A stretch of 64,000 nucleotides of DNA from Butyrivibrio sp. (GTDB lineage: Bacteria; Bacillota; Clostridia; Lachnospirales; Lachnospiraceae), in contig SVGC01000003.1 of assembly GCA_015056495.1 (NCBI GenBank), forward strand, positions 62,001 to 126,000. The letters are read 5' to 3'. Below the pieces are notes generated by a model. It did no database searches and had not been told where the DNA came from. It was given only the letters and a program-made list of their open reading frames with translations. Of this stretch, positions 1-35,857 are shown one piece after another (position 1 is the stretch's first letter; each line of letters starts with the position of its first letter). Made by a program: the position numbers and the translations under genes.

Positions 1-1474
1 CCCGCGCACGGCGGACTGATTCTTTCTCATGGATCACTACATCAAAGGAATGCTCTGCCCAGGGAAGAGTGCAGGTATCGAGGTCTCCCCAGGCCGTCTC
101 ATCAGCTACAGTGCACGCGATTCGAGCGGCAAAAGAGTTGACGCAGACTCCGCATACATAAGATTCAGGTAGTGCATGTTTAATAAAAGATGCATTAGCA
201 CCAAGGCCGCAGGAAAAATCAAGAATCCTCAATGGACGCTTTGCATCTTTTGCATAAGCTATTACTGCTGCTACTGCCTCGTCCCATTCAAGGCTATATT
301 TCCACGCATCAAAGCCCCATTTATTCTTGAATCTCTCTCTATTGATTTCAAAACAATCACTGTGACCTTCAAAACCTTCACCGCCATCGTGATATATAAA
401 ACTATTCGAGCAGACATATTGTCTATAGCCAAGAGCAGCCAATCTTATTCCAAGGTCATCATCTTCAAAATACCCTGGGGAATACTGTTCATCAAAGACC
501 TCCCCATCAGGAGCTACCTCTTTTAAAGCATCATTTAAAACAAGAAGTGCAAACCCCGTTAACCTGAATCGCCTTATACAGGACTTAAAGTCCGGAAAGC
601 TGTTATCTAAAGCATACCTATTAAATATGTCAAGACTCCTCTTAAAGCCCAGCTTCTTGTGCCATCCCGGCAAAAGCTCTTCTCCGACATATTTTTCAAA
701 TAAAGAAGGATCAATTTCCTGACGAGAAGCACTGTTGGACATAGCACTGCATGCCCCTACATTCCTATCCTCATATAGTCCCATCCTCAGATAGAACAGG
801 GCGTTTGGTGTAAGAACTGCATCGTTATTTAAAAATAATATATCATTAGCAGGGGCACAGTATTTATATCCAAGATTACTACCTTTCGGAAATCCCAGAT
901 TTTCATCACTTTCAATCAGCTTAAATCTGTAAGATGCGCTATCTCTTTTTCCTTTAAGATATTCTCTTACACCGCTCTGAGTTGATGCATTATCCACTAC
1001 CACAACTTCAAAAGAATTATCAGGGAGGCAACTCTCTATAGCTTCAATGCAAGACTTTAATATTTCAAGGTCGTTATAAGAAAGAATCTGAATGCTGACG
1101 TTTCTTACCCTCATTCCCGGAGAATTCTTAAGCTCATTAAAAGTTTCTTCAATTAAAGATTTATCCTCATTGTCACAATAAAAATAAGCCATTTCCATAC
1201 AAAGATATGCCTTATTAACATTTAAATTGCGATAATAAAGACCAAGCATGTAAAATAGCTCATAGTTTGTCGGGGCATATTTCATGCCCCTGGATATTGC
1301 TCCAAATTCTGCTGTAGCATCCCTTAGGCCTTCCCATAAAGAAGCCTCCAAAATGCAAAGTTTTGCAGCGCTTTCATTGTCCAACTCACCAGCATGATAG
1401 TATTGGTTTCGAAACTCATAGAGTGCTTCTTTATAATTTCCTTTTGTTAACAGGCTTTCAAGTTTTTCAAACAT
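1..1474 (-). CDS. Glycosyltransferase family 2 / SAM methyltransferase multidomain protein (partial)
   Basis: This frame is open from an ATG at 1474 through the left edge (491 codons, no stop), so the ORF track omits it; the 176..526 plus-strand entry is its shadow. I translated it codon by codon. Residues 1-110 are helical and TPR-like. Residues about 120-370 carry GT2 features: VVVVDNAS, an LFLNNDA DxD-region motif and YFEDDDLGIRL, as in rhamnosyltransferase-like enzymes. After about 420 there is a class I methyltransferase motif I (ILDFSCGLGANA). GGAGGAG lies 5 nt before the ATG. The likely role is modifying a surface polysaccharide or glycoprotein. It follows the MATE fusion gene by 29 nt on the same strand. 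Domain calls are good; the substrate is unknown. Confidence 0.85.
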   Translation of the reverse strand, partial: MFEKLESLLTKGNYKEALYEFRNQYYHAGELDNESAAKLCILEASLWEGLRDATAEFGAISRGMKYAPTNYELFYMLGLYYRNLNVNKAYLCMEMAYFYCDNEDKSLIEETFNELKNSPGMRVRNVSIQILSYNDLEILKSCIEAIESCLPDNSFEVVVVDNASTQSGVREYLKGKRDSASYRFKLIESDENLGFPKGSNLGYKYCAPANDILFLNNDAVLTPNALFYLRMGLYEDRNVGACSAMSNSASRQEIDPSLFEKYVGEELLPGWHKKLGFKRSLDIFNRYALDNSFPDFKSCIRRFRLTGFALLVLNDALKEVAPDGEVFDEQYSPGYFEDDDLGIRLAALGYRQYVCSNSFIYHDGGEGFEGHSDCFEINRERFKNKWGFDAWKYSLEWDEAVAAVIAYAKDAKRPLRILDFSCGLGANASFIKHALPESYVCGVCVNSFAARIACTVADETAWGDLDTCTLPWAEHSFDVVIHEKESVRRAR

Positions 1475-1503
1475 ATGCTCCTCCTAAAAGTCATATCCTT
1501 CTT

Positions 1504-3285
1504 TTACAACTTTATGGTTAGAACATTGAGCCCAAGGACATTCTGATAGGTAAAATCCTTGGAAATCCTATAGACCATGCGAAGTCCAATATTTTTGGTC
1601 TTATCTTCAGGATCAGCAATTCTCTGCCTCTGGACAGGGTCAAATGGCTGACAGTCATCCTTGATAGACAGGATAATATCCTCATCCTTTACTATTGCCC
1701 TGGCAGTAAGATTATGAGGCTTACTATCCATGGTAAACCCATGGCTAACAACGTTACCTGCCATCTCCTCGAGAGAGAGGCTGGCAAAATAAGCCCTTCT
1801 CTTGTCTATGCCCTTGTCTGTACAGAATCTCTGAACAACCTCTGAGATTTCTGTCACATCTTCCATCCTGTGGACATTAAATTCTATCCTGTGATTGTCA
1901 TCCACTCCAAAATCACCAGGTATTACCATGAGTTCGTCTATATTTCCCGGAATCTTTTTATTCTTGATGATTGAGTAAATAATAACAATTAACATGCAAA
2001 ATATACCGTTTAATACATTTGCATAATAAACTGCATTCATGCCATAGGATGGTATCAAAAAAGCCGTGAAGATACATACAAAGACAAATCCGTCCAGGAT
2101 TGCATACAGGTGCACCATAAACTGCTTGCCCGAGGCAAGAGCGTAACAGCTAAAGTGCATGAGCCATACAGAAAACGGCATGCAAATAGGCAGTATCCTG
2201 TATCCACACATGGTCATATCAAATACCGGCCCGGCAGGATTTTGAAAAAAAACCATGGTAAAAGGTTTTGCCATAAAGATGATAAATGCAGCAATTGCGC
2301 ATTGCAGCGGAATGAACCTGAACAGGGCTGTCCTCATGACATTGGCAAGAGTTGTCCTGTCCTCTTCACCGACGCTGACACTCATGAGCATCCTTGAGAC
2401 ATTTAACATCCCCGCGGGGATTGCCCAGAAAAAAGCCATTATGGCATTTGAAGCTGCAAACGCAGAAATACCTGCACTGCCCACGTAAGAAATGATAAGT
2501 CCGTTTACGATAAAGCCACGAATAGTCTGATAACCGTTACCTATAGCACCAAGGCTTCCTTTTTTCACCATTTCCTTTGCATCTTCCCATTTAAGTTCCT
2601 TAAACTTAAGCCTGATAGATGCCTTGGCTGAAAAGAAGTACTGAGCCTGGACCAGCATAAATACCCACATTCCAAGAGACGATGCCATAGCAAGTCCAAG
2701 AGCTTCAAGATGCATTACTTGCACAAAGATATAGTTAAATAAAAGATTGGCAATTATGTATATGATACTGGCCACGGTAGTCCTCATAGCTTTGTTTTCA
2801 AGTGAAAGAAATGCCGCCAGCTGATTGCCTATAAACAGAGGGAAAACACCAATAGCCTGCCCAAGCAAGAATCTGTTAAATACAATCCTTGTGGCCTGGT
2901 CAGGAGACATGGCGGTTGTCAAATCAAATATTCCCAAAATAAGCAAACCTACAACAATCACAGCAGATATGATGGTGCACAGAATTATATCCAATGTAAA
3001 GACATTCTGCATCTGATCAACCTGGTTCTTACCCATGTATTTTCCACATATCACCACTGCTCCAATCATGAGCAAGTTACTTATGCTGGTCACAAGGAAG
3101 TTTATAGGGTTATATAATCCCACGGCGCCCATAGCTGCTTCGCCAACATAGTTAGTAGCAAAAACGCCGGTTACAATTCCGTTTATTGTAATAATAGAGC
3201 TTAGAAGTATCTGCACAGGAAGGAGCCTGAACAATAGCTTGGCTGTCATCTTAAAGTTATAGCCGAAAGGATTTGTTTTATCCAT
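1504..3285 (-). CDS. MATE-family transporter fused to C-terminal RsbW-like histidine-kinase-type ATPase domain
   Basis: Residues 1 to about 445 form a 12-helix MATE/MOP flippase (start of helix 1: LFRLLPVQILLSS). Ordinary MATE proteins end near 450 residues. Here about 140 more follow, with GHKL/HATPase_c_2 motifs as in anti-sigma kinases: EEMAGNVVSHGF (N box), DDCQPFDP (G1-like) and KNIGLRMVYRIS (G2-like). The transporter would move drugs or lipid-linked substrates across the membrane; the cytoplasmic domain may bind ATP and signal or gate. The architecture is visible in the sequence; its function is inference. The downstream glycosyltransferase gene may be co-transcribed. Confidence 0.88.
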   Translation of the reverse strand: MDKTNPFGYNFKMTAKLLFRLLPVQILLSSIITINGIVTGVFATNYVGEAAMGAVGLYNPINFLVTSISNLLMIGAVVICGKYMGKNQVDQMQNVFTLDIILCTIISAVIVVGLLILGIFDLTTAMSPDQATRIVFNRFLLGQAIGVFPLFIGNQLAAFLSLENKAMRTTVASIIYIIANLLFNYIFVQVMHLEALGLAMASSLGMWVFMLVQAQYFFSAKASIRLKFKELKWEDAKEMVKKGSLGAIGNGYQTIRGFIVNGLIISYVGSAGISAFAASNAIMAFFWAIPAGMLNVSRMLMSVSVGEEDRTTLANVMRTALFRFIPLQCAIAAFIIFMAKPFTMVFFQNPAGPVFDMTMCGYRILPICMPFSVWLMHFSCYALASGKQFMVHLYAILDGFVFVCIFTAFLIPSYGMNAVYYANVLNGIFCMLIVIIYSIIKNKKIPGNIDELMVIPGDFGVDDNHRIEFNVHRMEDVTEISEVVQRFCTDKGIDKRRAYFASLSLEEMAGNVVSHGFTMDSKPHNLTARAIVKDEDIILSIKDDCQPFDPVQRQRIADPEDKTKNIGLRMVYRISKDFTYQNVLGLNVLTIKL

Positions 3286-11728: not shown

Positions 11729-12475
11729 ATGTATATTGATTGTGACGGCATAAAACTAAATGCTTATCTAGATATGCCGAAGAATAATTCAGATAAATGT
11801 CCATTGTGTATCATAATCCATGGTTTTACAGGACATAGTGAAGAAAGACATATTGTTGCGGTTCAGGAAACACTTAATGAAATCGGGGTGGCAACACTTC
11901 GCGCAGACATGTATGGACATGGAAAGAGCGACGGAAAGTTTGAAGATCACACGCTTTTCAAGTGGCTTACAAATATCCTTGCAGTAGTTGACTATGCCAA
12001 GAAGCTTGATTTTGTTACAGACATCTACATGGCAGGACACTCTCAGGGCGGACTTTCTGTAATGCTTGCTGCAGCGATGGAAAGAGATATTGTCAAGGCA
12101 CTTATTCCATTATCACCTGCTGCAATGATCCCTGAAATAGCCAAAACCGGAGAACTTCTCGGAATTAAATTTGATCCGGAGAATATTCCCGATGAACTTG
12201 ATGCCTGGGATGGAAGAAAGCTAAAAGGCAACTATGTCAGAGTTGCTCAGACTATCAGGGTTGAAGATTTTGTGGATAAATACACAAAGCCAGTACTTAT
12301 AGTTCATGGTGATCAGGATGAAGCAGTTCCTTATGAGTCCTCCGTGATTTTTTCTAAGTTGTATAAGAACTGTAAATTAGTAACTATTCTCGGAGATACT
12401 CACTGTTATGATCACCATCTTGAGCTTGTCACTGAAGCGGTAAAAGAATTTATGCTTGAGCAGATTGCTAAATAA
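11729..12475 (+). CDS. Alpha/beta hydrolase, feruloyl/cinnamoyl esterase-like
   Basis: 248 aa. It has an oxyanion-loop HGFTGHSEE, RADMYGHGKSDG, nucleophile elbow GHSQGG (Ser about 106), acid region VHGDQDEAVPY and a C-terminal GDTHCYDHH histidine. This pattern follows cinnamoyl esterases such as Est1E of Butyrivibrio proteoclasticus, which release ferulate from plant cell walls. No signal peptide, so intracellular. GGAGGG precedes the ATG. It has its own likely promoter. The exact substrate is inferred. Confidence 0.8.
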   Translation: MYIDCDGIKLNAYLDMPKNNSDKCPLCIIIHGFTGHSEERHIVAVQETLNEIGVATLRADMYGHGKSDGKFEDHTLFKWLTNILAVVDYAKKLDFVTDIYMAGHSQGGLSVMLAAAMERDIVKALIPLSPAAMIPEIAKTGELLGIKFDPENIPDELDAWDGRKLKGNYVRVAQTIRVEDFVDKYTKPVLIVHGDQDEAVPYESSVIFSKLYKNCKLVTILGDTHCYDHHLELVTEAVKEFMLEQIAK

Positions 12476-12537
12476 TTATATGTATGCTACTATTCAATTT
12501 AGAAAAAGAAAGGGCGATTTTTCGCAGAGGTGACTGA

Positions 12538-12552
12538 ATGATTATTAGATAA
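12538..12552 (+). CDS. Tiny leader ORF (MIIR) before the ABC-F leader
   Basis: ATG ATT ATT AGA TAA, preceded by GAGGTG at 5 nt, a very strong ribosome site for so short a frame. It lies in the 5' arm of the hairpin that encloses the main leader ORF. Confidence 0.35.
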   Translation: MIIR

Positions 12553-12568
12553 TTTGATTTAGGTGAAC

Positions 12569-12616
12569 ATGTTGATACGGCTGCTGCGTATGTGGCGGCT
12601 TAATGTGTACGCTTAA
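12569..12616 (+). CDS. ABC-F leader peptide (15 aa)
   Basis: MLIRLLRMWRLNVYA follows AGGTG by about 4 nt. Arg occurs every third residue (4, 7, 10). Arg-rich short leaders are known upstream of macrolide-inducible methylases and ABC-F genes, although the strict Arg-X-Arg stalling motif is absent here. It lies in the loop between two complementary arms and before a terminator. Too short for the ORF track. Confidence 0.6.
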   Translation: MLIRLLRMWRLNVYA

Positions 12617-12768
12617 ATTGGATTATCATGCATTCAGAGCCTATTTTATTCATATATAGGTCTATTTGTGTGAGTCTATTTTGCGTACGCAGGGTAGACT
12701 CATTTTATTGGAAAAAATGGATTTTCTTTCAATAAATATTTCTGACTGATAGACAAGGGGGCTTATAT

Positions 12769-14241
12769 ATGACTAGAAGATTACTAATACAAGCAGAGAA
12801 TATAGTTCATTCCTATGGAGAACAGACAGTCCTTGATTTTGACAGATTTTATCTGTACGAAGGTGAGAAAGTAGGACTGGTTGGAATGAATGGTGCAGGT
12901 AAGAGTACGCTGCTTAAGCTATTGGCAGGAGAGATAGAACCTACGTCAGGAACAATCTCCAGCAAATGCACTCCTTTTTATTTTGAACAGTTTGGATCTG
13001 ATGTTACATATGTTGAAACTGACTATGCAGAGGCAGGAAAAATGGGAGTGGCAGACCGACTCTGGCAGGAAAAGGTCAGTGGCGGAGAAGATACCAGAAT
13101 AAGGCTTGCACAGCTCTTTTCAAGCACGCATGCGGTGGCATTTCTGGACGAACCAACTTCAAATCTGGATTTCGAAGGCGTTGAAATGCTCAAAAAGAGA
13201 CTAAAAGAAATAGATACATTTGTCATGATCAGCCATGACAGGTCTGTTCTAAATGATCTATGTGACAGGATCGTAGAAATATCTTTTGGGAAACTGCATA
13301 GTTACAGCGGAAATTACGATGAATATGTAGTCCAGAAAGAAGAACTGATTAAAACACAGCAGGCAGAATATGAGAATTATCAGGCTGAGAAAAAGAGACT
13401 AAGAAACGTCTACATAGATAAAAAAGTCAAGGCAAAGACTGTCGAAAAGAAGCCGAAGAATTTATCAGCAAGTGAAGCAAAGGCAATTTCTTTTTGTGGC
13501 AATAGAAAACCAGAGGACAAGGCGCGAGGAATAGAAAGAAGTGCTGCAAACGTTCTTAAACGAATTGAGCATATGGAGGTAAAAGAAAAACCAAAAGAAG
13601 AACCAACTTTAAGGCCGGATTTCAGGCTTACTAATCCACCAAGAAATCCCATTGTGATCCGCGGAGAGCATATTTCTTTTGCCTATGATGATCATGTTGT
13701 CTTTGACGATGCCAATTTTATGATAAAAAACGGAAGTAAGGTGGCCTTACTTGGCTGTAACGGTGCAGGAAAGACTACCTTGCTTGAACTTATCAACCAG
13801 CGGGAAAGCATATATGTGGTTCCGGGAGTCAAAATAGGGTATGCCAAGCAGAATATGTCACAGATAGAACTTGATAAAACTGTTCTTGAAAATGTTCGCA
13901 GAGTCAGCATTCAGAGTGAGAGCCTTTCCAGGATAATATTGGCACGTCTTTTGCTATCTGAAAGAGATATGCACAAAAAGGCATCAGAGCTTTCTGGTGG
14001 TGAGAGGATGAAGCTGTCTTTTGCAATGCTTTTTGTGTCAGATGTAAATTTGCTTATATTGGATGAACCAACGAACTATCTTGATATCCCATCTGTTGAG
14101 GCTTTAGAAAAAATGCTGAAAGAGTATGAAGGAACACTTGTGTTTACTTCACATGATAAAGTTTTTGTGGACAGGATCGCAACAGAGAGGCTTTATCTAG
14201 GTAACGGGAAGATTAGAGAATGTGACAAAACTGTAATGTAA
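12769..14241 (+). CDS. ABC-F family ATPase, probable ribosomal protection protein
   Basis: 490 aa with two nucleotide-binding domains and no membrane segments. Walker A GMNGAGKST and GCNGAGKTT; signatures VSGGEDTRI and LSGGERMKL; Walker B with FLDEPTSNLD and ILDEPTNYLD. Between them is a charged linker (about 185-290, KKRLRNVYIDKKVKAK), the part that reaches the ribosomal exit-site region in Vga/Lsa/Msr-type proteins. It likely dislodges drugs from 50S or rescues stalled ribosomes. The upstream leader and terminator support a drug-inducible role. Spectrum cannot be predicted. Confidence 0.85.
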   Translation: MTRRLLIQAENIVHSYGEQTVLDFDRFYLYEGEKVGLVGMNGAGKSTLLKLLAGEIEPTSGTISSKCTPFYFEQFGSDVTYVETDYAEAGKMGVADRLWQEKVSGGEDTRIRLAQLFSSTHAVAFLDEPTSNLDFEGVEMLKKRLKEIDTFVMISHDRSVLNDLCDRIVEISFGKLHSYSGNYDEYVVQKEELIKTQQAEYENYQAEKKRLRNVYIDKKVKAKTVEKKPKNLSASEAKAISFCGNRKPEDKARGIERSAANVLKRIEHMEVKEKPKEEPTLRPDFRLTNPPRNPIVIRGEHISFAYDDHVVFDDANFMIKNGSKVALLGCNGAGKTTLLELINQRESIYVVPGVKIGYAKQNMSQIELDKTVLENVRRVSIQSESLSRIILARLLLSERDMHKKASELSGGERMKLSFAMLFVSDVNLLILDEPTNYLDIPSVEALEKMLKEYEGTLVFTSHDKVFVDRIATERLYLGNGKIRECDKTVM

Positions 14242-14303: not shown

Positions 14304-15011
14304 ATGAGACTATTCTTGTTAGAAGATGATGATGCCATTGGGATGGGGCTTAAATATTCATTGGAAAAAGAGAATTATGAGGTAGTTCATGTCAGAACCA
14401 AGAGTGAAGCTCTTGAAACATTTAGCGAAAAGAGTGTTGACCTATGCATATTGGACATAAACCTTCCGGACGGAAATGGCTACGATGTCTGCAGATATAT
14501 CAAGGAAAAAGAGGATGTGCCTGTAATTTTCTTAACTGCCAGTGATGCAGAGGTTAACGTAGTCATGGGGCTCGAGATGGGAGCGGATGACTATGTGTGT
14601 AAGCCGTTTAGGATAAATGAGCTTATGGCAAGGATAAAGACTGTACTAAGAAGAAGCGGACGAGGCAGCGAAAATAATGCTTCCGAGACAGAAGGAATCC
14701 TTGAAATCCAAAATGTCCGCATACACTTAAGTGAAGCCAAGGTTGGAATAGTTGATGAGATAACAGGGAAAGAAACAACAGCCGACCTGACAGCCCTTGA
14801 GTACAGGCTTTTACTTGCTTTTTGCAATAACAGAGGAAACGTTATGTCCAGAAATCAGCTCCTTGAAGATATGTGGGATGTAAATGGAGACTTTGTCAAT
14901 GATAATACGCTGACAGTTTATATCAAGAGATTACGAGATAAAATAGAAAAAGATCCTGCAAATCCGCAGATCATAAGGACTGTACGCGGCCTTGGCTATA
15001 TTGTTAAGTGA
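14304..15011 (+). CDS. OmpR/PhoB-family response regulator
   Basis: 235 aa. Receiver domain 1-120 with acidic pair DD at 8-9, phosphoacceptor Asp in LCILDINLPDGNG (about 52) and the switch lysine in VCKPF. C-terminal winged helix 130-233 ending with the TVYIKRLRDKIE and RTVRGLGYI motifs. It controls the downstream ABC transporter with the kinase that follows. GAGGAG precedes the ATG. Its TGA stop overlaps the first bases of a palindromic repeat inserted before the kinase gene. Confidence 0.93.
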   Translation: MRLFLLEDDDAIGMGLKYSLEKENYEVVHVRTKSEALETFSEKSVDLCILDINLPDGNGYDVCRYIKEKEDVPVIFLTASDAEVNVVMGLEMGADDYVCKPFRINELMARIKTVLRRSGRGSENNASETEGILEIQNVRIHLSEAKVGIVDEITGKETTADLTALEYRLLLAFCNNRGNVMSRNQLLEDMWDVNGDFVNDNTLTVYIKRLRDKIEKDPANPQIIRTVRGLGYIVK

Positions 15012-15055
15012 GTCAGCGGGGACAAAGAGCCAATCTGATACGTCCCCACTGATTC
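15010..15055. repeat. Diverged copy of the GGGGACGTATCA palindromic repeat
   Basis: GAGTCAGCGGGGAC ... TGATACGTCCCCACTGATTC. The right half matches the perfect palindrome at 19535 with two changes; the left arm is cut after GGGGAC. It lies between response regulator and kinase in one operon. Confidence 0.75.
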
Positions 15056-15078
15056 AAAACAACTGGGGAGAAACGAAT

Positions 15079-16077
15079 ATGCTAAAAAATAAGGAATCAA
15101 GAATAATGATATTTGTTGCCACTGTGATTACAGTAGTAGCTTCAATATGCGGATATGCATTATGTGGCATATCCGCATTTCTTCTATTATTGCTGGTAGG
15201 AATAGCTATTACAGGCGGATTTGTCTACATAACAAAAAGAAGATATGAAGACATCAGTGCGCTCAGTTCTTATCTTGAGAAGGTCCTTGCAGGTGGAGAG
15301 GTCCCTAATATCCTGGATCAGGAGGAAGGTGAGCTGTCCATATTAAAAACTAATATCTACAAAGCTACATCTACCTTGTGCCACCAAAAAGAGCTTTTGT
15401 CAAAAGATAAAGTGGCTATGGCCAATGCCATTGCAGATATCAGCCATCAGCTCAAAACTCCCCTTACATCAATGATAGTAATGAATGATCTTCTCATGAC
15501 TGAAGAGGATATTCAAAAGAGAAATGAATTCCTCAAAACACAGTCAAATCAGCTTGATAGGATGAACTGGCTCATACAGACTCTTTTAAAATTATCCAAG
15601 ATCGATGCAGGGACTATCACTATGAACCCGGAAAATGAAAAAGCGGATGAGCTGATAAGCGAAGTGATGAGGCCTTTTGAAATACAGATGGAATTAAAAA
15701 ATATTACATATCGCTATAGAGCTGCCAATACAGTCATAAAGTGCGATAAAAACTGGACTATAGAAGCTCTTCAGAATATTGTGAAAAACTGCATTGAACA
15801 TATAGATGAAGGTGGAAAACTTGAAATCACCACAACTGAAACCAACATTTACTCGGAAATAGTTATAGAAGATAATGGCTGTGGTATTCCGGAGAATGAA
15901 CTGCCACATATTTTTGAAAGATTTTACAAAGGCAGTAATGCAGGAAAAGACAGTGTAGGAATTGGACTGGCGCTTTCTAATTCGATAATCACAAGTCAGC
16001 ATGGGGAAATCATTGTAGAGAGCAGTGAAGGAGAAGGAACCAGGTTTAAGGTAAGGTTCTATAAGACAATCCTGTGA
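15079..16077 (+). CDS. Sensor histidine kinase, BceS-like
   Basis: I start at ATG 15079 (MLKNKESRIM, GGGGAGAAA upstream), not at the track's 14992, which would run through the repeat. 332 aa. Two transmembrane helices (about 10-55) with almost no external loop, as in intramembrane-sensing kinases. HisKA ADISHQLKTPLTSM with the phosphoacceptor His, then ATPase motifs NCIEH, EDNGCGIPE, HIFERFYKG and GIGLALS. Such kinases sense peptides through their partner ABC permease. It pairs with the preceding regulator. Confidence 0.92.
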   Translation: MLKNKESRIMIFVATVITVVASICGYALCGISAFLLLLLVGIAITGGFVYITKRRYEDISALSSYLEKVLAGGEVPNILDQEEGELSILKTNIYKATSTLCHQKELLSKDKVAMANAIADISHQLKTPLTSMIVMNDLLMTEEDIQKRNEFLKTQSNQLDRMNWLIQTLLKLSKIDAGTITMNPENEKADELISEVMRPFEIQMELKNITYRYRAANTVIKCDKNWTIEALQNIVKNCIEHIDEGGKLEITTTETNIYSEIVIEDNGCGIPENELPHIFERFYKGSNAGKDSVGIGLALSNSIITSQHGEIIVESSEGEGTRFKVRFYKTIL

Positions 16078-16109
16078 AAAAAATAGGCTAGTGTATGCTA
16101 AGAACAAAG

Positions 16110-16200
16110 TTTTGCCCTATGTGACAAAATTGTAATTAAAAAGTCATCAGATAGTAAGGTTGAGGCGATAATCTATTCTCAAAGCAGGAATTAAAGATAC
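16110..16200 (+). promoter_or_regulatory. Intergenic region with candidate response-regulator site
   Basis: GTGACAAAATTGTAA (about 16121-16135) is an imperfect dyad upstream of the ABC ATPase gene, a plausible binding site for the adjacent response regulator. Assignment by position only. Confidence 0.3.
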
Positions 16201-16240
16201 TTGTATTTGAAGTTACCTGCAATGAGAAAGGGGCATGAAT

Positions 16241-16936
16241 ATGAATATTTTGGAAATCAGAAATTTATGCAAAGTATATGGTCAGGGGGAGACAAGAGTT
16301 GATGCTCTGAAAAATGTTTCTTTTGACGTAGAACAGGGAGAATTTGTGGCAATTGTAGGTCCTTCAGGATCAGGTAAGTCAACACTTCTTCATATATTGG
16401 GCGGAGTAGATGTACCGACATCAGGAACCTGCAATATAGCCGGAACTGACATAGGTAAACTTGATGAAACAAAGCTTGCAATCTTCCGAAGAAGGAACAT
16501 TGGGCTTATCTACCAGTTTTATAACCTTATTCCAATCCTGAATGTGGAGGAGAACTTAACACTTCCTATTCTTCTTGATGGCAAAAAACCGGATAAGGCT
16601 CTTCTTAATGACCTTGTGGAAAAGCTTGGATTAAAGAGCAGACTCTCTCACCTTCCAAACCAGCTATCAGGTGGGCAGCAACAGAGAGTATCCATCGGGC
16701 GTGCGCTTATGAATCACCCGGCTCTCCTTCTTGCAGACGAGCCTACCGGCAACCTTGATTCTGAGAACAGCAAGGAGATCATCTCACTTCTTCGCAAGTT
16801 CAACAAGGAAAATAATCAGACGGTTATCATTATTACGCATGATGAGAGAATAGCTCTTTCTGCTGACAGAGTGATTACAATTGAAGATGGTCAGATTACC
16901 AGGGATTCAGGGAAAGCCGGGGTGATCGCATCATGA
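16241..16936 (+). CDS. ABC transporter ATP-binding protein, BceA/LolD-like
   Basis: About 231 aa from ATG 16241 (AAGGGG 7 nt upstream; an ATG at 16235 is also possible). Walker A GPSGSGKST, Q-loop YQFYNLIP, signature LSGGQQQRVSIGRAL, Walker B LLLADEPTGNLD and H-loop ITHDERIA. It energises the FtsX-type permease encoded next, with a 4-bp overlap. With the kinase and regulator it forms a peptide-antibiotic detoxification or lipoprotein-release type module. Confidence 0.93.
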   Translation: MNILEIRNLCKVYGQGETRVDALKNVSFDVEQGEFVAIVGPSGSGKSTLLHILGGVDVPTSGTCNIAGTDIGKLDETKLAIFRRRNIGLIYQFYNLIPILNVEENLTLPILLDGKKPDKALLNDLVEKLGLKSRLSHLPNQLSGGQQQRVSIGRALMNHPALLLADEPTGNLDSENSKEIISLLRKFNKENNQTVIIITHDERIALSADRVITIEDGQITRDSGKAGVIAS

Positions 16937-19524
16937 ATATCATATCGAAGTTAACACTAAGGCATCTTTTGGATAATAAGAAAAGATCTGTAGTAACAAT
17001 TCTTGGAATAGCTACTTCAACTGCACTTATCAGTGCTATTCTTCTTGGCGTTTTTTCCTTCTTTAGCTTTTTTGGATACATTTCAGTTCAGACTTCAGGA
17101 GCTGCCCACGCTGATTTTGAGAAGGTGTCAAGAGAGCAGTATGAGTCCCTTCTTGCTGATGAAACGCTGGAAACAGTAGGGCTTAGAGAGGTTGAAGAAG
17201 AAAAGACAGGTGTAAGGCTGCTAACAGACACGGAGGAAAGATTCAGAGTCGGGAACATCGATCACGCGACACAGGAAGATTTTGAAATGAGAGTTGTTTC
17301 AGACTACGATGGTACTTTGCCTTCAAACTCGTCAGAAATTGCTGTTGAAGAAAATTTCCTTACAGATAATGGTCTTGATCTCAAAGTAGGAGATACACTT
17401 ACATTTGAAGAGGGATATAGGTTTATTGATAACGAACTTGAAGGCTTTGCCTACCTAGGAGGTACCTATAGGTCTGATGAGCAATTTGAAGTAAGGTCTA
17501 CAGATACCTGCACCATTACAGCTATTTTGCATGGAAATCGAGCAACTAAAGACTGGGATATCCTTCGGGGAATGGATGATAGCTACTATCCTGATCAGGA
17601 GAAAGCTTTTGTTTCTATAATGCTTAAAAAATGTGACAGTTCATCGATCAAGCAGATAAAGGCTCTGGTCAAGAAGTACGGAATAGAAAAGTACACGATA
17701 AATACTGAGTATCTTCTTAGCAGGTTCGCTTTTGAAGGTAGCGCAGGTTCTTACAAAAGATTTTTTGTCCTGATGGGAATAGCTCTGGCTATTGTAGTTG
17801 CAACTTCAGTTATCCTTATATTTAACTCTATAGGAATGTCGCTTACTGAGAGAATGAGATATCTGGGAATGCTGGCAAGTGTTGGTGCCACGGCACGTCA
17901 AAAGAGATTTTCAATCTACTACGAAGGTCTCGTGCTTGGGCTGATAGGTATTCCGCTTGGACTTCTCTTTGGATATATAGGAACAAAGATTACGCTGGCT
18001 ATACTGGGAAGAAGGATTCTTGAGGCAGATATCATTGTTGGAGCTGAAGGCATGCGTGGAACAATTCCTATAGTAGTTCAGTGGCCTGTGATTGCAGCTA
18101 TTATTATCTTTTCTGCCCTTACAATATTGATTTCTGTTTTGGTGCCGGGAATTAAGGCAGCCAGGATCATGCCTATAGATGCCCTCAGACAGAGCACAAC
18201 CATCAAGGTTAAGGCAAGACAATTACGCGTCAATCCGCTTATCAGAAAGATATTTGGTTATGAGGGAGAGCTTGCTTACAAGAATATTAAGAGAAATGGA
18301 GTTAAAGGAAAGGTGATTACAATATCCATTGCGGTTTCTATAATTCTTTTCCTGACTCTTAATTTCTTTTGCAGATCAATAGCAAGAGCTAATAGCTACG
18401 ATATTGATATTCCTTATCAGATAATCGCCTCTTGTGCTCTTAATGAAAGTGACAGATTAAGAGATGCAATCAGTGAAATGGCGGGAGTAAACGATGTCTA
18501 TTGTTCTGGACTGATCCATTTCTCATTTAAAAAGGAGCAAGATGACCCATATACAACTCTTGCAAACACAGATATAGCAGATAGGAGCTTTTTGACAGAG
18601 AGTTTTAGAGAAAAGGCTGATGCCTTTGATCTGTATACTATGGCTGTAGAAATAGTTGATGATGAAGATTTTGACAAGATACTGGATGAGAACGGGCTTT
18701 CAAGGGATGATTATTATTCAGGGACACTTAGAGGAGTTCTCCTAAACAGTTATTTCCATGAGGTAAATGATGCCCCTGTATTTAATGAAGGCATCATAGG
18801 TCAGAGCCTTCATTATGATGAGGTCATGGGCTTCCCACCTGCAATTGAAGTGGCGGCACTGGTTCCATATACAGCTGACAATAAGGTTTTTGACTATATA
18901 CCAAGGGGAACTATGACTGTTTTTGTTCCCAGGTCAGTTTATTATGAGAAGGCAAAAGAGGTACTTCCTGAGGATGAACTAACGCTTGATCTGGCAGTTG
19001 AGACTACAGATAATAAAGCAGTTTATTCAAAAATCTATCAGCTTCTGATGGAAGATGGCTATCACAACTATTATTGTACAGACCTTACAGATTCGCTGAA
19101 AATCATGGATACCATTACACTTATGCTCAACACAGCTATGTATGGCTTTTCTACATTATTGACCCTTATAGCCATTGCAAATATTGTGAATACTATTTCT
19201 ACCGGCGTTCTTTTAAGGCGGAAAGAGTTTGCTATGTATAAGTCTGTAGGTCTTGATAATAGGGGCTTTAAAAAAATGATATGGTTGGAGGTATTCCTTT
19301 ATGGCTTTAAGGCTTTGCTTTGGGGAATTCCAATATCTCTTTTTCTCAGTTTCATGATGTATCGCTCATTTGACTCTGCGTTGTATACCTTTAGTCCAAA
19401 CCTTGCCTTTTATGGCGTAGTAATAGTTGCAGTATTTGGAATACTGGGAATTAGCATGGGACTAAGCGTCCATAAGATCAAGGACGACAATATCATAGAA
19501 GCTCTTAAAGAAGATGCAGTGTAA
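16933..19524 (+). CDS. Large FtsX-type ABC transporter permease
   Basis: 863 aa, ATGA-coupled to the ATPase gene. One N-terminal helix (about 18-50), a large outside domain, three helices (about 275-410), a second N-type helix (about 450-475), another outside domain and three final helices: a duplicated FtsX/MacB-permease layout with about 8 helices. True BceB proteins have about 650 residues and 10 helices, so this is a relative with two extracellular domains. Likely senses or expels peptides at the membrane. It ends 10 nt before the 78-bp palindrome. Confidence 0.88.
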   Translation: MNIISKLTLRHLLDNKKRSVVTILGIATSTALISAILLGVFSFFSFFGYISVQTSGAAHADFEKVSREQYESLLADETLETVGLREVEEEKTGVRLLTDTEERFRVGNIDHATQEDFEMRVVSDYDGTLPSNSSEIAVEENFLTDNGLDLKVGDTLTFEEGYRFIDNELEGFAYLGGTYRSDEQFEVRSTDTCTITAILHGNRATKDWDILRGMDDSYYPDQEKAFVSIMLKKCDSSSIKQIKALVKKYGIEKYTINTEYLLSRFAFEGSAGSYKRFFVLMGIALAIVVATSVILIFNSIGMSLTERMRYLGMLASVGATARQKRFSIYYEGLVLGLIGIPLGLLFGYIGTKITLAILGRRILEADIIVGAEGMRGTIPIVVQWPVIAAIIIFSALTILISVLVPGIKAARIMPIDALRQSTTIKVKARQLRVNPLIRKIFGYEGELAYKNIKRNGVKGKVITISIAVSIILFLTLNFFCRSIARANSYDIDIPYQIIASCALNESDRLRDAISEMAGVNDVYCSGLIHFSFKKEQDDPYTTLANTDIADRSFLTESFREKADAFDLYTMAVEIVDDEDFDKILDENGLSRDDYYSGTLRGVLLNSYFHEVNDAPVFNEGIIGQSLHYDEVMGFPPAIEVAALVPYTADNKVFDYIPRGTMTVFVPRSVYYEKAKEVLPEDELTLDLAVETTDNKAVYSKIYQLLMEDGYHNYYCTDLTDSLKIMDTITLMLNTAMYGFSTLLTLIAIANIVNTISTGVLLRRKEFAMYKSVGLDNRGFKKMIWLEVFLYGFKALLWGIPISLFLSFMMYRSFDSALYTFSPNLAFYGVVIVAVFGILGISMGLSVHKIKDDNIIEALKEDAV

Positions 19525-35583: not shown

Positions 35584-35611
35584 TATTGAAATATAAGACA
35601 ATTTATAAAGG

Positions 35612-35857
35612 CAATGACGAAGAGAGTAGATTATCTTGGAAAGCTTTAGAGAGCCAGTGGTTGGTGCAAACTGGTGCGAGTACTGATATTTGAAAATCAC
35701 TTCTGAGCTGCAAAGTCGAAATGATCAGTAGACTGCGACGTATTCTTCGCGTTAGGAAGAGCCGTATGAAACTTATTTAAGGAAGTACGTGTAAAACAGG
35801 TGGTTAAGCGTGGTAAATTTTGCCTCGTCCTTTTTTACGAAAGGACGAGGCTTTTTT
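35612..35857 (+). promoter_or_regulatory. T-box riboswitch of ileS
   Basis: A 250-nt leader with Stem I-type GACGAAGAGAGTAGA and GAGAGCCAGTGG elements, an AGGTGGTTAAGCG T-box bulge (35798-35810) and a terminator GCCTCGTCCTTT/AAAGGACGAGGC followed by T6 (35822-35857). Uncharged tRNA would pair with the specifier and the bulge to favour the antiterminator. An ATC near 35695 could be the isoleucine specifier; I could not fold Stem I to prove this. Confidence 0.85.

Follow-up and report, generated by a model that had tools for sequence, protein, structure and literature searches.

A candidate ribosome-sensing leader RNA family with a conserved mini-ORF precedes several classes of ABC-F genes in Lachnospiraceae

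Mutation of very short upstream open reading frames (uORFs) has tied them to drug induction of ABC-F genes: altering the uORF start abolished induction by lincomycin in the vmlR leader of Bacillus subtilis (uORF MIN; PMC9226507), and induction by lincomycin and retapamulin in the cplR leader of C. difficile (uORF MRI, MR[I/M] in clostridia; PMC10201436). The layout of such leaders is proved in both vmlR (PMC9226507) and cplR (PMC10201436). In Are5sc, lincosamides, pleuromutilins and streptogramin A hold ribosomes at the uORF start codon, and erythromycin does not have this effect (PMC12421871). Whether drugs of the peptidyl-transferase centre (PTC) read the sequence of these minimal peptides was a question raised for vmlR and left open (PMC9226507, PMC10201436).

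The window, a 64,000-nucleotide stretch of Butyrivibrio sp. DNA, carries a leader of similar design upstream of an ABC-F gene. Its parts are as follows:

12465-12493, + strand: promoter with a -35-like TTGCTA, a 17-nt spacer and an extended -10, TGCTACTAT (read from sequence)
12526-12533, + strand: Shine-Dalgarno (SD) sequence of the mini-ORF, AGAGGTGA, just 5' of it (read from sequence)
12538-12552, + strand: mini-ORF ATG ATT ATT AGA TAA, encoding MIIR, the putative conserved sensor (an ORF of 2-4 codons is kept in relatives)
12548-12570, + strand: 5' arm of the anti-antiterminator, taking in the mini-ORF stop codon (folding, consensus structure)
12569-12616, + strand: 15-codon ORF, MLIRLLRMWRLNVYA followed by a stop codon (start site kept in one clade, peptide unconserved; possible second stall site)
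12603-12627, + strand: 3' arm of the anti-antiterminator, doubling as 5' strand of the antiterminator (comparative folding, duplex fits)
12604-12624 with 12673-12691, + strand: antiterminator pairing, the second segment being the 5' half of the terminator (duplex energy)
12652-12665, + strand: strand that can pair with the start and ribosome-binding site of the ABC-F gene, putatively adding translational control in window-type leaders (duplex at -22.0 kcal/mol; z -4.0 relative to shuffles)
12670-12709, + strand: intrinsic terminator with U-rich tail (terminator-like hairpin, comparative folding)
12749-12771, + strand: ABC-F ribosome-binding site AAGGGGG and start codon, paired with 12652-12665 (duplex with the internal strand)
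12769-14241, + strand: ABC-F gene of ribosomal-protection type, window class, Vga/Msr-like (NCBIfam NF000355, above cutoff)

Transcription is predicted to start at about 12501, and a -10-like hexamer or extended -10 was found upstream in 73 of 84 leaders. Butyrivibrio-type leaders have [AG]GGTG before the start codon at a constant, short spacing. The window leader folds at -103 kcal/mol against -60 ± 4.5 kcal/mol for dinucleotide shuffles (z -9.6, 0/200), so its structure is far beyond chance; the first hairpin, terminator and antiterminator have energies of -38.6, -19.9 and -17.9 kcal/mol, respectively. An earlier note on this DNA had described the same two ORFs, and the sequence confirms both exactly as given, along with its placement of the mini-ORF in the 5' arm of a hairpin (the mini-ORF lies at and in that arm of the large hairpin) and its terminator, which is present as a terminator-like hairpin with a U-rich tail. 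Conservation in relatives backs the mini-ORF, the hairpin and the terminator, and does not back the 15-residue peptide. Searching Rfam, both at the gathering threshold and with E up to 10, gave no match at the leader.

The encoded ABC-F protein has two nucleotide-binding domains and scores 454 bits with NF000355 (cutoff 380). It reaches 457 of 725 bits with the Vga model and 431 of 680 with the Msr model, both below the curated cutoffs, and the CplR model likewise matches below its cutoff. Its best solved relative is the Vga-type structure 7nhl, followed by 5zlu and 7nhn. Right after the gene, 14304-19524 encodes an OmpR-type response regulator, a histidine kinase, a LolD/MacB-like ATPase and an 863-residue permease-like ORF, a set that resembles a peptide-antibiotic sensing and detoxification module. 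Elsewhere in the window, a T-box leader at 35605-35835 reaches the gathering score.

A DNA search of the same genome returned a second copy of the leader (74% identity, E 1.5e-26), which precedes a different ABC-F gene whose product is 26% identical to that of the window. This copy keeps the mini-ORF (as MSIR) and loses the ATG of the 15-codon ORF, and so reveals which part is conserved. An exact-pattern scan of 84,980 genomes found 38 loci, all in Lachnospiraceae; this pattern prescribes 25 bases of the 3' arm, and the conservation seen in that arm is therefore partly a product of how the scan loci were chosen, which does not apply to loci fetched by protein. Genus orthologues and the scan together provided 41 alignable full leaders, and a covariance model built from these matched 41 of 397 sampled Lachnospiraceae genomes (38 of 334 genera), as well as leaders in two further families of the order. 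Weak matches to the model in L115, L117 and L121 were rejected as ordinary terminators.

In 84 of 85 leaders we find a start codon, only one to three sense codons and a stop. The mini-ORF has four codons in 76 leaders, three in seven and two in one; it starts with ATG in 83 and TTG in one, and ends with TAA (63), TAG (12) or TGA (9), the stop never being lost. Manual reading was used for three of the mini-ORFs. There is free variation at codons 2 and 3, and the fourth is AGA in 68 leaders, CGA in seven and AAA in one, giving Arg in 75 of the 76 four-codon forms and Lys in the other. Most peptides are of the type MIIR, MINR, MSIR or MFIR, without Arg-X-Arg; some are MRMR, MRNR or MRIR, and forms without the fourth-codon Arg are MFI, MRI, MRY, MKF, MIF and MK. 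Part of this conservation is explained by the second and third bases of codon 4 being paired within the stem. The first base is unpaired and can be A, C or, in some three-codon forms where it belongs to the stop, T; G never occurs here, a sign that the residue is also under selection. A mini-peptide that ends in a near-invariant basic residue appears to be new.

The 15-codon ORF has a different history. The earlier note had pointed to its periodic arginines as reminiscent of arginine-dependent macrolide arrest peptides: Arg is indeed present at positions 4, 7 and 10 without Arg-X-Arg, and the wider motif Arg/Lys-X-Arg/Lys is also absent. Of the 12 leaders in the window's clade, 11 have its ATG, which is missing from the window-type leaders L016, L022 and L066 and from leaders of other ABC-F classes. 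The frame reads for 9 to 47 residues across leaders, and in the nearest relative (L004) it reads MLIWLLLMRRLNVYA, with the arginine spacing broken. We rejected it as an arrest peptide: sequence, length and arginines are unconserved and the ORF is lost outside one clade. By descent the 15-mer thus appears to be no arrest peptide, and the core of the leader, judged by what is kept, is the MIIR mini-ORF and not the arginine-rich 15-mer.

Comparative folding supports a model of three mutually exclusive helices: an anti-antiterminator that holds the mini-ORF stop, an intrinsic terminator, and an antiterminator that bridges the two. The anti-antiterminator and terminator are backed by an RNAalifold consensus and by counts for named structures on 28 divergent leaders. 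For these two helices, 88.9% of cells are paired (no more than 46% after sliding), 20 of the 41 pairs show changes in both partners, and the covariation score is 0.340, compared with 0.236 ± 0.008 in shuffles (0/500). For the antiterminator, 91.1% are paired (at most 66% when slid), five pairs changed on both sides and seven of 500 shuffles scored as high; per-column shuffles equal its paired percentage, and the column test alone is therefore modest. The stronger evidence comes from the two strands themselves. The duplex is at -16.2 kcal/mol within leaders, -14.4 kcal/mol between leaders and -6.3 kcal/mol with shuffled arms, and none of 10,000 permutations of swapped arms was as good as the cognate set, in a test which leaves relatedness uncorrected. 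One leader group has also replaced both strands, GCCGAA together with UUCGGC. Masking of the ABC-F SD has z of about -2 to -5 in most leaders of the window-type clade, and is unsupported by the duplex test in class b leaders. Three features of attenuators of the vmlR/cplR kind are found here: a uORF of a few codons that has a ribosome-binding site of its own, an exclusive set of anti-antiterminator, antiterminator and terminator, and a resistance-type ABC-F gene downstream.

Folds with a ribosome footprint blocked were computed at equilibrium for 41 leaders, ignoring co-transcriptional order. The antiterminator dominates neither in any of the free RNAs nor in any RNA given a control block. With a ribosome at successive positions, the first on the AUG and the last on codon 4, it dominates in 4, 11, 15 and 29 of the 41 leaders. 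By these folds, the stall that matters is therefore on codon 4, the site of the basic residue, or close to it. The window leader is among the most stable: with a single ribosome on codon 4 neither it nor its nearest relative flips in these folds (antiterminator 0.0 of 8; terminator 12.8 in the window). To flip, both need either a footprint that extends to +30 or a ribosome at each of the two start codons, which are 31 nt, or about one ribosome, apart; with the second arrangement, the window leader reaches an antiterminator value of 6.8 of 8 and a terminator value of 1.2.

We consider it very probable that the leader is a ribosome-sensing transcription attenuator in which drug-stalled ribosomes on the mini-ORF prevent termination. 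In the absence of drug, the four-codon ORF would be translated fast, its stop codon and the next bases would pair as the anti-antiterminator, and the terminator would fold 5' of the ABC-F gene. A drug at the peptidyl-transferase centre, most likely a lincosamide, pleuromutilin or streptogramin A, would stall the mini-ORF ribosome and cover the 5' arm; the freed 3' arm could then pair with the 5' half of the terminator as antiterminator and allow read-through. In window-type leaders, a second helix would mask the ABC-F ribosome-binding site too. What the analysis shows is the anatomy of the leader, its conservation and covariation, its association with ABC-F genes and the switch in constrained folds; stalling, drug class and induction are the elements we infer. 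A stall on the start codon, the known effect of lincosamides and pleuromutilins, opens just four of 41 leaders in the folds, which counts against this scheme. A further, tentative proposal, to which we give less than even weight, is that M-X-X-R/K is a four-residue drug-dependent arrest peptide whose fourth-codon basic residue is itself the sensor, with the stall occurring as Arg or Lys enters or has just been added, and that the leader is a mobile cassette captured by at least three ABC-F classes.

Other readings of the same RNA differ in what the ribosome, if any, responds to. Ribosomes stalled in tandem at the starts of the mini-ORF and the 15-codon ORF might together open the hairpin of window-type leaders, the sequence of the 15-mer being irrelevant. 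We hold this to be possible and on balance doubtful: the two-ribosome block flips the window leader and 12 of 13 clade leaders, and the second start is the part of the 15-codon ORF that the clade keeps, yet this arrangement is absent from every other class, the second ATG lies in a helix whose pairing may explain its conservation, its SD spacing is short, and the case comes from equilibrium folds only. The view of the 15-mer as a macrolide arrest peptide that depends on arginine has the three arginines of the window copy in its favour and is very improbable, since it lacks Arg-X-Arg and neither its sequence, length nor arginines are kept even in the closest relative, quite apart from its restriction to one clade. 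The earlier note had also spoken of layered control. Attenuation by a uORF with a terminator is supported. Layering gains some support from the pairing of an internal strand with the ABC-F ribosome-binding site in window-type leaders and from the 15-mer start as a possible second stall site; a role for the 15-mer peptide is unsupported. Given the SD-masking strand and the flip with two occupied starts, layered control is plausible in the window's clade, though not through that peptide.

The near-invariant Arg at codon 4 would also suit an arginine-starvation attenuator, with ribosomes pausing there for want of charged tRNA-Arg; we rate this as highly unlikely, since there is just one Arg codon, several leaders lack it, and the targets are ABC-F genes and not arginine genes. 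A riboswitch for a small molecule or protein, with an incidental mini-ORF, would fit a highly conserved structured RNA absent from Rfam, but start codon, SD and stop are kept while the inner codons vary, and all three stop codons are used without the stop ever being lost, so we see little chance of it.

The earlier note had suggested looking for the leader upstream of ABC-F genes in related genomes, and there it recurs: an ABC-F gene lies downstream in 76 of 85 leaders, many of which were found from the RNA alone. Fifteen of these genes are window-type, 19 Lsa-like (603 bits to the Lsa model; Lsa(A) structure 7nhk, E 1e-110) and 42 of a divergent class b (282 bits against the NF000355 cutoff of 380). 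The other nine leaders have no ABC-F gene downstream, at least two of them at contig ends. A quick tree of 75 leaders, with many weak branches, requires 10 changes of ABC-F class against a minimum of two; window-type leaders are nested together with Butyrivibrio class b leaders, and the class b and class c leaders of one genome are sisters (SH-aLRT 96). Because so many branches are weak, we claim only that leaders appear to have been exchanged between classes more than once. A single leader family which serves three ABC-F classes and has apparently moved between them is, as far as the sequences indicate, new. One genome of another order carries the leader, and its downstream ABC-F is 72% identical to class b and so was probably transferred. 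With blastn, the window leader matched no plasmids or phages and two divergent leaders matched no plasmids; these collections thus give no hint of spread by plasmids.

Not every member of the window ABC-F class has the leader: R1 matches are absent from the upstream stretches fetched for orthologues in MFS-ABC-F operons and for other leaderless loci. In L018-L021, L024 and L025, the window ABC-F orthologue comes right after a transporter-like gene, apparently in one operon, with no R1 leader in the stretches checked. L027 (170-460) has a window-type ABC-F of 56% identity behind a leader with MINR, a stop and a complementary downstream strand, without an R1 match; it may be a diverged or a convergent version. 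In L062 (155-473), unrelated sequence replaces the terminator region, and through this loss the ABC-F would be constitutive.

Several leaders have other neighbours. Intact leaders (MRMR, MEIR) precede an ABC-2 exporter operon instead of an ABC-F gene in L050 (4642-8000), L061 and L030; in L050 and L061 that operon is preceded by a uracil-DNA-glycosylase-like gene, and the L050 genome has a second, 5'-truncated copy 2.4 kb upstream. The L038 leader (1998-2753, minus strand) lies directly 5' of a GNAT acetyltransferase gene, and because a similar acetyltransferase follows a deleted ABC-F in L031, L038 may have lost its ABC-F. The L092 leader (910-1704, minus strand; mini-ORF MIF) precedes a DJ-1/PfpI family gene. 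In L002 (1433-2615, minus strand), the second leader of the genome and its class b ABC-F are directly 3' of a gene that by eye is REP-associated-transposase-like, with repeated CCCCTGGGG palindromes between them.

The family would represent an inducible resistance-type regulon for Lachnospiraceae, a dominant gut and rumen family, and comes with a covariance model ready for annotation. It predicts that class b ABC-F proteins, which fall below the curated ribosome-protection cutoff, are antibiotic-responsive resistance factors, and its dozens of natural mini-ORF variants offer material for testing if drugs aimed at the PTC recognize the sequence of a peptide four residues long.

A literature search, with subscription-only papers outside its reach, found no paper describing this leader. 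The vmlR leader (PMC9226507) shares with it a uORF of only a few codons at or within the first stem-loop, an anti-antiterminator, antiterminator and terminator, an ABC-F gene downstream and, as regards most window-type leaders, an SD-masking helix; we see no sequence relation between the two, and here the uORF has four codons ending in Arg or Lys and three ABC-F classes are served. The cplR leader (PMC10201436) likewise combines a short uORF, terminator and ABC-F gene, with SD masking as in most window-type leaders, and one of our leaders (L016) encodes MRI; there, however, the uORF has three codons and translational attenuation alone suffices. The cplR leader is not known to be related in sequence to this RNA family. 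The lsaA leader (PMC10201436) has a four-codon uORF before an Lsa-type ABC-F, but its MAGN lacks a terminal basic residue; the likeness is one of uORF and gene. The MsrD, ErmDL and HflXr leaders (PMC10314930, PMC6310831) also couple ribosomes to resistance-gene control through Arg-X-Arg peptides, which the MRMR, MRNR and MRIR mini-ORFs recall, whereas most mini-ORFs here, and the 15-mer, lack Arg-X-Arg. In layout and logic the leader matches those of vmlR and cplR, and it appears to be a separate RNA family of the same kind as the vmlR, cplR and Are5sc leaders.
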